This document shows positions 5,461 to 56,424 of a stretch of 64,000 bases of DNA, one piece after another. The DNA is from Cytophagaceae bacterium (lineage in GTDB: Bacteria > Bacteroidota > Bacteroidia > Cytophagales > JAIYAX01). The stretch lies in the NCBI GenBank assembly GCA_027488815.1, contig JAIYAX010000012.1:434001-498000 (forward strand), given 5' to 3'. Below the pieces are notes generated by a model. That model was given only the letters and a program-made list of their open reading frames with translations. It did not search any database and was not told the origin of the DNA. The stretch's first letter is position 1; every line of letters begins with the position of its first letter. The translations under genes were made by a program, and so were the position numbers.

Positions 5461-5497
5461 AGGGGCCGGAGCTTTGCTTCGGCCCTTTTGTTTTTTT
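5461..5497 (+). terminator. Intrinsic terminator after GEVED paralogue 1
   Basis: The stem GGCCGGAGC / GCTTCGGCC with a TTT loop is extended by weaker pairs and followed by a run of T (5486-5497). It lies 20 bases after the stop codon. Confidence 0.85.
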
Positions 5498-11807: not shown

Positions 11808-13856
11808 ATGCGAATTCTGTTCATCATCTCAATTCTTTTACTATCGCATGAGTGGGTTTTATCGCAATCGATAGGAAGATGCGCTACCACTGAAAGAGCC
11901 AAAGCAATGGGCTTCCAACCTCCTGTGTTTTTGGGTGGGCATCAGTTCTCAAGAATTCAGCAGACAAGAATTATTCCCGTGATAGTTCATGTTGTTTACC
12001 AAAATCAGGATCAAAACATTTCAGACCGAAAGGTATTGTCCCAATTAGACGTAATCAACCGTGATTTTAATCTCAAGAATGCAGACACCGTTTTGGTACC
12101 AAACATTTACCAATCCTTGAAAGGAAATGTTCAAATTCAATTTGCCCTGGCCAAGACTGACCCACAGGGAAGAGCGTGCTCCGGGATACAGCGCATTCAA
12201 ACTAATGTTGCTTCTTTTAGTTTTGACGACAGGGTTAAGAAAACGATTGAAGGAGGTTCTGATGCCTGGCCATCTGATCGGTACTTAAATATTTGGGTTT
12301 GCAATATGCAAAGCCCTGTTCTTGGGTATTCGTCATTTCCGGGAGAAAACCCACAAAATGATGGGGTTGTCGTTGACTTTATGGCATTTGGTAAGGTTGA
12401 AGAGCGTTTTAGGGAGTTTAACCTTGGTCGCACACTCACACATGAGTTGGGGCACTATTTCAACTTATACCATATCTGGGGCGATCAGCCAGGCTGCACT
12501 GCTTCTGACAGTATAGCGGATACTCCGGTACAGAATAACTCAACCACGGGCTGCCCTCAACATCCAAGAGTTTCCTGCAATAACTCGGGAGACCTGTTTG
12601 TTAATTTTATGGATTATACTGACGACCGCTGTATGGTAATGTTTACGGAAGGCCAAAAAGGAAGGATGTTGCAAACCGTTTCAACTTTTAGAGCCACTTT
12701 GGGGACACATGGTCTGGATCAACCACCTTTAGTAAATGGTCCTTATGCAGTTATCTCAAATGTTAAGCAGCCAAATTTATTTGAATGCGGAGCAATCAGG
12801 TTAACTATTGATCTGTTTAACAGAGGATCAGATACCATCAAAGCTCTGGGTCTGCAAAGCCCTGGTTTTGCTTTTACCATAGATCCTTTTGCTTTCATTC
12901 CACCAGGTAAAAGCTCCCAGATCACAGCCTCATCCAACATTAGCCAAAGAGGTTTCTTTTCCGCAGAAATTGCCTTGTCGCAGGTGAATGGAGTTCAAGT
13001 TGTCGATTCGTTTCCAATCAGGTTTAGCTACTCAAGCTCCGGAGACACTGCATTGTTCCCTAAAACGATAGCTAGAGAAAATCTGGAAACTGAGAAACTA
13101 TTGAACTGGAAAGTAAATAACCCTGATAGTTTAGATGACTTGACATTCGAAATTGGCAATGAGTCAGGCTTTTCAGAAGGGGAACATAGTTTGTTGATTC
13201 GGTCTTTTGGTTCAGCAATACAGACCTATGGTCAGGTTGATGAGTTGATCAGCCCTTCTATAGATTTCACAAACCAGCCAAAAGCAGTATTAACTTTTGA
13301 CTACGCCTATTTGTATTACAATAGCTCTGAGAATAACGATACGCTGATCGTGGACTATTCAACGGATTGTGGACAAAACTTCAATGTTCTTAAAAAAATG
13401 TTCGGATCCAACCTCCGAACATCTCAACGTTCCATCACTCAAGACTTGAATGCTTCCAGAAGGTCTGATTGGAGAGCTATTGGCATCGATCTTCCGGAAC
13501 TGGTTTCTAAGGTGTCATTTAGAATTCGATTTGTGAATGATGGTGGAGGGGCGCTATGGTTAGATAACCTTGGCATTGGCACTGATTTGCCAAATAAGCC
13601 TGCTGTTAGGTTTTCAGTTTATCCTAATCCAGTAAAAGAAATCCTCAACATCAACTCTTCACAAGCCATAGATCAGGCACCGGTTGTAAGCTTAATTACA
13701 ACTTCAGGTAAGCTGTTGATCAGTGAGTTGACACCTATTGAACAGCTTTCAGACTCTTGGACATTCAAACTGCCTGAGATAGCACCTCAACTTTTAATTT
13801 TGAAAATTGAAGCTCAAGGAGCAGTTCAACATGCAAAGGTGATGATTGCTCATTAG
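11808..13856 (+). CDS. M43 (pappalysin-like) zinc metalloprotease with T9SS sorting domain
   Basis: A secreted metzincin-type protease of 682 residues. I start it at the ATG at 11808: the signal peptide (about residues 1-19, ending VLSQ) begins there, while the frame upstream passes through a terminator. The zinc site is HELGHYFNLYH (H212, E213, H216, H222); Asn219 stands where most metzincins have Gly. A Met-turn-like segment follows (FVNFMDYTDD), and several cysteines between them are typical of M43. After the catalytic domain come a beta-sandwich of CARDB type (about 305-410), a jelly-roll-like region (about 425-595), and a sorting domain beginning VYPNPVKE. It follows the GEVED genes but probably has its own promoter. 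It faces the M28 peptidase tail to tail with a single base between the stop codons. Confidence 0.9.
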   Translation: MRILFIISILLLSHEWVLSQSIGRCATTERAKAMGFQPPVFLGGHQFSRIQQTRIIPVIVHVVYQNQDQNISDRKVLSQLDVINRDFNLKNADTVLVPNIYQSLKGNVQIQFALAKTDPQGRACSGIQRIQTNVASFSFDDRVKKTIEGGSDAWPSDRYLNIWVCNMQSPVLGYSSFPGENPQNDGVVVDFMAFGKVEERFREFNLGRTLTHELGHYFNLYHIWGDQPGCTASDSIADTPVQNNSTTGCPQHPRVSCNNSGDLFVNFMDYTDDRCMVMFTEGQKGRMLQTVSTFRATLGTHGLDQPPLVNGPYAVISNVKQPNLFECGAIRLTIDLFNRGSDTIKALGLQSPGFAFTIDPFAFIPPGKSSQITASSNISQRGFFSAEIALSQVNGVQVVDSFPIRFSYSSSGDTALFPKTIARENLETEKLLNWKVNNPDSLDDLTFEIGNESGFSEGEHSLLIRSFGSAIQTYGQVDELISPSIDFTNQPKAVLTFDYAYLYYNSSENNDTLIVDYSTDCGQNFNVLKKMFGSNLRTSQRSITQDLNASRRSDWRAIGIDLPELVSKVSFRIRFVNDGGGALWLDNLGIGTDLPNKPAVRFSVYPNPVKEILNINSSQAIDQAPVVSLITTSGKLLISELTPIEQLSDSWTFKLPEIAPQLLILKIEAQGAVQHAKVMIAH

Positions 13857-30812: not shown

Positions 30813-31019
30813 CTACTCTTTAATCTTTGGCGTTTCTTTACTACCTTTTTCGATTTCGTCTTTTATTTCATTTGTGGCGTCTTTGAACTCACGGATACCA
30901 CGACCAAGGCCTCTGGCAAGTTCAGGTATCTTTTTAGCGCCAAACAGCAAAAGGAAAATAAGGATAATAAGGAGGACTTCCCAACCGCCTATACCTCCGA
31001 GAAATAAGAGTTGTAGCAT
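30813..31019 (-). CDS. tatA: Sec-independent protein translocase TatA
   Basis: TatA oligomers form the pore of the twin-arginine export system for folded proteins. The 68-residue protein has a single N-terminal hydrophobic helix, the hinge FGAKKIPELARGLGRG (family signature FGxxKxPEL), an amphipathic helix and a charged tail. It is the first gene of the long minus-strand series leading to sprA and has its own putative -7 box. tatC is not nearby. Confidence 0.94.
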   Translation of the reverse strand: MLQLLFLGGIGGWEVLLIILIFLLLFGAKKIPELARGLGRGIREFKDATNEIKDEIEKGSKETPKIKE

Positions 31020-31024
31020 GATGT

Positions 31025-31040
31025 GCTTTTTCTAAAAAGC
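31025..31040. repeat. Inverted repeat in the tatA leader
   Basis: GCTTTTT-CT-AAAAAGC is a perfect 7-bp inverted repeat between the tatA start codon and its putative -7 box. With a 2-base loop it is more plausible as a DNA-binding dyad than as an RNA hairpin. Confidence 0.35.
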
Positions 31041-31047
31041 AAATATA
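31040..31047 (-). promoter_or_regulatory. Putative -7 box of tatA (TATATTTG)
   Basis: On the minus strand this reads TATATTTG, a perfect TAnnTTTG match 20 bases upstream of the tatA ATG. No clear TTG is seen at -33. It would drive the tatA to vanZ series. Confidence 0.42.
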
Positions 31048-31130
31048 GCAAATCATTTAGCAGCATCATCCGAAGCTGTTTTCCCAAAATTGGAAGAAAA
31101 ATCCTCCAGAGGGATGGAAATCAGTGTTTG

Positions 31131-31326
31131 GCATGGCGTGATGTGCCTCAGAAAGGCTCAAAGGGAATTTTTGCCTTACGGCACGGTGTTTCCTTATAGG
31201 GTATTGTCTCTGAGTAATACGGGGACTTAACCAGAAGAAAGTTAGGCTTTTGAAGAGATAAAGACATCACATCGATAACCTAACCCCAATCAACGTTGGC
31301 TGCCATCGAAAGATGGCAGCTTTTTT
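31131..31326 (+). ncRNA. Candidate structured noncoding RNA between tatA and the EnvC-like gene
   Basis: The 305-base gap 31020-31324 has no protein gene, yet ends in a strong plus-strand terminator. Upstream of it I can nest several helices: GTGATGT (31138-31144) with ACATCAC (31264-31270); CTCAGA (31147-31152) with TCTGAG (31209-31214); AAGGGAA (31161-31167) with TTTCCTT (31189-31195); and TGCC-TTAC-GGCA at the tip. A side hairpin CTTAAC / GTTAGG (31226-31246) sits on the 3' side of the internal loop. A long irregular hairpin with a bubble recalls 6S RNA, but I cannot confirm that family. No standard promoter was found; only a partial box ending TTTG at 31130 is present. Confidence 0.42.
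31299..31326 (+). terminator. Orphan plus-strand intrinsic terminator
   Basis: A perfect 9-bp stem GCTGCCATC / GATGGCAGC closed by a GAAA tetraloop is followed directly by six T. It points in the plus direction, although no plus-strand protein gene lies upstream for many kilobases. It reaches two bases into the stop codon region of the minus-strand EnvC-like gene. Confidence 0.85.
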
Positions 31327-32512
31327 ATTTACCCAATAGCCAGGATTGGGGGTCAAGCCTTTCCATGTTGTTCCAAATCTGGAACTGCACCTCAGCAATG
31401 CCATCATGGTCCTGCACCTCACCGATGACTTCTTTCATTTTGATTTTTTGTCCGGCTTTGACCTGAATGCCCTTGAGATTTGAATACACCGTGAAATAGT
31501 CTCCATGCTGAATGGTGACGAGGTTTGAGCCTTGAATGGAGGCAATTGAGCCAACCACACCATCGAAAACTGCCCTGACTTTCTCGCCTTTATTGGTTTG
31601 AATTTTTACTCCCAGATTGTCGATCACCACATTTCGAAGTACCGGATGAGGTTGTTTCCCAAATCTGGAACTGATAAACCCATTCTCTACGGGCCAAATC
31701 AGTTTGGACTTATTGCCTGAGAACGAACGTGAAACCAGTCCAGCTTCTGGAGTAAGGCTTATTTTATCGGCATTTCTAACCTTTGTACTCTTGCGAATCT
31801 CTGATTTGATCAAATCTGCAATCAACTTTTCAAGAGCCGAATTGGCTTTGCGAATGGCTTTGATTTCATCATTCAGCTCTTTTTCTTTCTTCTTTAGCTT
31901 CTGCACCAATTCTGCTTGCTCAGTACGCATACCTTGCAGGGTAGTGTTTTCCATGTATTCACTATTGAGCAGTGTCTTCTTTGCGAGCCTTTTGGAGTTC
32001 AGTTCCTTTTGCTGACCCAGCAAAGCTTCTGTGACTTTTTTAATCTCAGTTACCTGTTTTCTCCTGGCTTCTGCATAAAACCTGAGATAGTTCAACCTTC
32101 GATGGAGTTGCTTGAAAGTTTCAGCTGTAAAGAGAAATACCACAAATCGATCTGAATATTTCACCTTTGAAGTGGCATACACCATCGCCCCGTACTCTTT
32201 TTTTAGCATTTTCAGATCTTCTTCCATCGCTTCAACCACCTCATTGTTTTCAAGAATATCGGCATCCAGCAAACGGAGTTCTGATCCTATGTTGCGGATT
32301 TTGGCTTCCTGAAGGCTGATTTTTTCATTAAGCGCACTGAGTTGCCCAAGTGTAGCTTGCTGTTTTTCCTTCGTTTCATTAAGGATTTTACTGGTCTCTT
32401 CGAGCTTTTTTCGGTTTCGTTGCTTTTCTCTCTCAAGCTCTGTGCGACTTTTTTGAGCATGAGCCTGTACCATCCAAAAAAGAAGTAAAAGTATGCTCGT
32501 CCACCTCAGCAT
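31325..32512 (-). CDS. EnvC-like murein hydrolase activator (degenerate LytM/M23 protein)
   Basis: The 395-residue exported protein has a signal peptide (1-19), a long coiled coil (about 20-250, rich in K/E/L heptads) and a C-terminal LytM domain (about 275-395). The fold signatures are kept (WPVENGFISSRFG, GEKVRAVFDGVVGSI, VKAGQKIKMKEVIGEV), but every zinc ligand is replaced: the HxxxD site reads NLGVK, the YSHL histidine is YSNL and the HLHFEI site reads EVQFQI. As with E. coli EnvC, this predicts a non-catalytic activator of cell-wall amidases rather than an endopeptidase. It lies six bases after the DUF4292 gene at the end of the series. A target amidase is not in the window. Confidence 0.88.
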   Translation of the reverse strand: MLRWTSILLLLFWMVQAHAQKSRTELEREKQRNRKKLEETSKILNETKEKQQATLGQLSALNEKISLQEAKIRNIGSELRLLDADILENNEVVEAMEEDLKMLKKEYGAMVYATSKVKYSDRFVVFLFTAETFKQLHRRLNYLRFYAEARRKQVTEIKKVTEALLGQQKELNSKRLAKKTLLNSEYMENTTLQGMRTEQAELVQKLKKKEKELNDEIKAIRKANSALEKLIADLIKSEIRKSTKVRNADKISLTPEAGLVSRSFSGNKSKLIWPVENGFISSRFGKQPHPVLRNVVIDNLGVKIQTNKGEKVRAVFDGVVGSIASIQGSNLVTIQHGDYFTVYSNLKGIQVKAGQKIKMKEVIGEVQDHDGIAEVQFQIWNNMERLDPQSWLLGK

Positions 32513-56390: not shown

Positions 56391-56424
56391 AAAAGAAAAA
56401 GGAGGTCAGATGATTCTGACCTCC
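56391..56424 (-). terminator. Intrinsic terminator after the OB-fold T9SS protein gene
   Basis: Reading the minus strand, GGAGGTCAGA-ATCA-TCTGACCTCC is a perfect 10-bp stem followed by TTTTTCTTTTT. It separates the upstream secreted-protein genes from the four-gene module, whose first gene starts nine bases later. Confidence 0.9.

Follow-up and report, generated by a model that had tools for sequence, protein, structure and literature searches.

Northern blots have confirmed most of the intergenic small RNAs (sRNAs) of Bacteroides thetaiotaomicron that carry an intrinsic terminator, and of the 49 high-confidence intergenic sRNAs in this species, 27 are strain-specific (PMC7366714). GibS of the same species (PMC7366714) and Rfp18 of Flavobacterium psychrophilum (PMC9723704) both come from short intergenic loci on a gene-free strand, with an intrinsic terminator at the 3' end and a narrow range. 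The locus considered here, which lies between tatA and an EnvC-like peptidase gene (envC) in a 3.37 Mb genome of a Cytophagaceae bacterium, resembles them in all these respects; unlike them, it has no recognizable promoter and is known from sequence alone, the comparison with both having been made by sequence through Rfam only. On balance, we regard it as a candidate for a short, lineage-restricted intergenic sRNA gene encoded on the plus strand of the tatA-envC gap. The closest named EnvC matches are from Cytophagales (Pontibacter, Marivirga, Hymenobacter and others), and among the genomes compared the source genome is the sole representative of its family. The features of the gap and its borders are given below in coordinates of the window, i.e. 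the whole 64-kb stretch of DNA analyzed.

30813-31019, minus strand: tatA (TatA_B_E), flanking gene
31040-31047, minus strand: exact TATATTTG, of the TAnnTTTG type, the likely -7 box for tatA, with counterparts in the gaps of several relatives
31166-31173, plus strand: best plus-strand -7 match, AATTTTTG, with TGTG 20 nt upstream; chance-level
31178-31326, plus strand: putative sRNA if its start is set by the weak promoter match, the strand being that of the terminator
31298-31326, plus strand: intrinsic terminator with nine perfect pairs (ten with the terminal G-U), a GAAA loop and T6
31325-32512, minus strand: EnvC-like M23 peptidase gene (envC), which runs toward the putative sRNA and has its stop codon right beside the terminator

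The terminator carries the main weight of this reading. Its stem arms, GCTGCCATC (31299-31307) and GATGGCAGC (31312-31320), lead into the T6 tract at 31321-31326, and the segment 31298-31326 folds at -18.3 kcal/mol (z -5.6 against shuffles). Across the 64-kb window, a perfect 9-bp stem followed by T6 occurs at one plus-strand site, 31299-31326, and the same criterion returned 0 sites in 200 simulated first-order Markov sequences of 64 kb each. It is an excellent intrinsic terminator and sets the plus-strand 3' end near 31326. The window's strong terminators at 5464(+), 9247(+) and 56402-56423(-) likewise combine a G+C-rich stem with a T-run, but each of them follows a protein gene on its own strand, whereas that of the candidate does not: in the ORF map, the minus strand carries every gene from 13858 to 42341, including tatA and envC, and the closest plus-strand gene upstream of the terminator ends at 13856, ~17 kb away. 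The initial annotation, which had described a perfect stem with a GAAA loop and T6 on the plus strand and no plus-strand protein gene upstream, was right on both counts. Because so strong a terminator lies on a gene-free strand, we read the locus as a plus-strand sRNA gene; the quality and direction of the terminator likewise support the step from an orphan terminator to an unannotated small RNA, whose transcription we infer. The gap between tatA and envC is 306 nt here, as against 47-221 nt in those relatives that have tatA directly after envC, and its greater length would leave room for an extra gene. Neither of the two open frames examined in the candidate region matched a Pfam family, and the idea of a coding relic was rejected on this basis. 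Taken together, the uniqueness of the terminator, the gene-free strand, the longer gap and the lack of a protein family in the frames support an sRNA, whereas a chance-level promoter, a body with no excess of stability once the terminator is left out and the lack of a homologue, both in 390 genomes of the order and by covariance model in the loci of relatives, count against it.

The primary sigma factor of the Bacteroidota recognizes TAnnTTTG at -7 and TTTG near -33 (PMC7366714). The best plus-strand match to the -7 element, AATTTTTG, carries no weight as a promoter because equal scores arise ~2 times per kb per strand. Transcription would start at around 31050-31180, which would give an RNA of ~150-270 nt with its 3' end near 31326. 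On the minus strand, the likely tatA promoter is at 31047-31040(-), so the candidate region would not be part of a tatA leader made from the TATATTTG promoter; a reading as a tatA leader or riboswitch is out, the likely promoter lying downstream of the candidate region.

Within the body of the candidate, three pairings are predicted.

31139-31272, plus strand: alternative closing helix of GTGATGT (31138-31144) with ACATCAC (31264-31270), enclosing several hairpins, the arms being placed to within 1-2 bases
31200-31232, plus strand: predicted hairpin GTCTCTG/CGGGGAC inside GGT/ACC
31241-31284, plus strand: predicted hairpin closed by GTTAGG (31241-31246) and CCTAAC (31279-31284)

The 160 bases preceding the terminator had been described as nested helices, with a closing helix, a bubble bearing a side hairpin and a long irregular hairpin, and the GTTAGG/CCTAAC pairing as one side of a switch between folds. 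Helices are indeed predicted, but their excess stability is weak: with the terminator excluded, 31178-31297 is no more stable than its shuffles (z +0.22), while 31138-31285 shows a modest z of -2.2, with 4 of 200 shuffles equally stable, and 31178-31326, which includes the terminator, reaches z -2.5. The segment 31136-31285 scores below ~93% of the background windows sampled from the 64 kb, with ~7% lower still. Largely, these folding statistics owe most to the terminator. The rod with its bubble does not hold up: when the closing helix is forced, the optimum (-41.9 kcal/mol, 0.2 kcal/mol apart from the -42.1 of the GTTAGG/CCTAAC alternative) joins separate hairpins in a multibranch junction and does not form a one-bubble rod. 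The GTTAGG/CCTAAC pairing itself is retained in the predicted fold; the proposed switch rests only on these two isoenergetic folds. Near-equal alternative folds are a common occurrence in RNA, and two such folds modeled for a single sequence are no evidence for a switch. We hold it to be very improbable that the locus encodes a new type of family-specific, structured regulatory RNA with two competing folds that acts in envelope biogenesis.

Relatives of the candidate were sought by several routes. The Infernal search proposed in the initial annotation returned nothing credible from Rfam for 30950-31450 at either gathering or permissive thresholds (E up to 10), RF00013 and RF01685 included. BLASTN against 59 relatives and then 390 genomes of the order yielded no convincing homologue, all matches being 21-32 nt long and due to chance or to the terminator; the match in L003 is a chance coding match inside a 2-oxoacid dehydrogenase E2-like gene. 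The EnvC relatives recovered by an alignment-based search are at most 47% identical, and the candidate region is common to none of them. A comparison of the tatA-envC gap in relatives had also been suggested, and in EnvC-anchored loci the gaps examined contained no similar sequence. In 75 further loci of relatives, a covariance model built on the body produced weak matches, none of which stood up to inspection: the one in L105 (E 0.0024) lies just past the end of a gene, breaks one helix and leaves half of the model deleted, whereas the one in L020 is inside a DUF4292-like reading frame. Phage and plasmid records gave no match, which speaks against a mobile origin. A candidate of this kind without homologues is not unusual, given the strain-specific fraction of the B. 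thetaiotaomicron set (27/49; PMC7366714).

For 6S RNA, the Rfam null is uninformative in Cytophagales, as RF00013 found nothing in the 59 relatives; RF00013 and RF01685 also found no 6S in the sampled genomes of the window's order. Because of this, a bridge was built by way of a 6S set from the class. RF01685 gave sub-threshold matches in 14 genomes of the class, ten of which (L123-L132) form a clear 6S set below the RF01685 cut-off (e.g. L124:1469-1637 + and L129:1468-1679 -). Nine of these ten lie just upstream of a ~480-codon RNase Y-like reading frame, which Pfam confirmed as RNase Y (rny) in L124 and L126, the order in L124 being zapA - 6S - rny. In the alignment of L123-L132, from which the tested structure was itself taken, 94% of cells are paired and 20 of 29 pairs show two-sided changes, and all slid controls score far below this. 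The closing stem of the set (98% of cells paired; two-sided changes in 10 of 12 pairs) leads directly into the U-tract. The model R1 recovered probable 6S RNAs in six genomes of the order to which the window belongs.

L137, 1501-1691, plus strand: probable 6S, R1 match
L138, 1501-1701, minus strand: probable 6S, R1 match
L139, 1501-1715, minus strand: probable 6S, R1 match
L140, 1501-1684, minus strand: probable 6S, R1 match
L141, 1501-1685, minus strand: probable 6S, R1 match
L142, 1501-1681, plus strand: probable 6S, R1 match

These six largely share the sequence cores AGGCCTCA, ACAGTGGAAG and CAAATCYTGT, and none has rny beside it in the loci viewed. As a by-product, sub-threshold 6S RNAs of Bacteroidia and Cytophagales are thus reachable by a bridging model, which is more useful than the sRNA itself, and the 6S gene lies just upstream of that for RNase Y in a large part of the class set sampled.

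The architecture of the candidate had been likened to that of 6S RNA, a resemblance that dissolved on comparison with these sequences. What the candidate has in common with 6S RNA (RF00013; 6S-Flavo, RF01685) is an approximate length, which makes the size plausible, and a closing helix that is present in one of its two isoenergetic folds. In contrast, it lacks the three cores shared by the order's 6S RNAs, matches neither R1 nor R2 and, when aligned to nine recovered 6S RNAs, scores -0.7 SD, as against +18 to +30 SD for true members. Its anatomy differs too: the 6S rod, with a closing stem, one central bubble and a long terminal hairpin, is replaced by separate hairpins or a multibranch junction, and where the closing stem of the Bacteroidia 6S RNAs runs directly into poly-U, the candidate has a separate terminator hairpin at its 3' end. 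The place of 6S is formally vacant, none having been located elsewhere in the source genome with RF00013, RF01685, R1, R2 or the core pattern; these searches score part of the candidates, so that this shows little. The sole core-pattern match in that genome is antisense within a long open frame, with the other 6S cores missing. Judged by its sequence and predicted fold, the candidate and the 6S RNAs of its relatives are not homologous, and that it should be the organism's own 6S RNA, sequestering RNA polymerase, appears extremely unlikely.

The remaining explanations concern the terminator itself. A promoter no better than chance, a body without excess structure and a region that is not conserved would all suit a bare terminator with no dedicated sRNA, either an insulator that keeps stray or antisense plus-strand transcripts from running into envC or a relic of a lost plus-strand gene. 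In both forms we consider this possible but unlikely, as terminators facing gene-free strands are otherwise rare in the window and the gap is ~100-250 nt longer than those of relatives. Alternatively, the hairpin, which starts ~4 nt past the envC stop codon, could serve the minus strand by ending or stabilizing the envC mRNA, the T-run then being the complement of an A-run beside the stop codon. However, when read on the minus strand, the stem is followed by AACGTTGATT with no U-tract, in contrast to the window's terminators that follow genes, and the relatives have no such hairpin after envC; we give this explanation little credence.

Returning to the plus-strand sRNA, we suggest with low confidence that it may be an ordinary trans-acting base-pairing sRNA, which would act via an unpaired purine-rich stretch at ~31232-31240, and, again with low confidence, that its terminator might also shield envC from antisense transcription. 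If transcribed, it would be one more orphan sRNA for a part of the Bacteroidota that is poorly mapped, which is of value for annotation and unsurprising. As to the surrounding gaps, the TAnnTTTG -7 box upstream of tatA recurs in the order, in the gaps of L023, L028, L040 and L073. In two of these, L023 and L073 (Sporocytophaga sp. MAG), we also observed an element that differs from the window sequence and does not match the 6S model R2; it is ~100 nt long, lies upstream of tatA and is common to both gaps (AAAGATAGGTAATAAACTGCAGGCCGCAAAAC...ATGTGGAAAACTTTCC).
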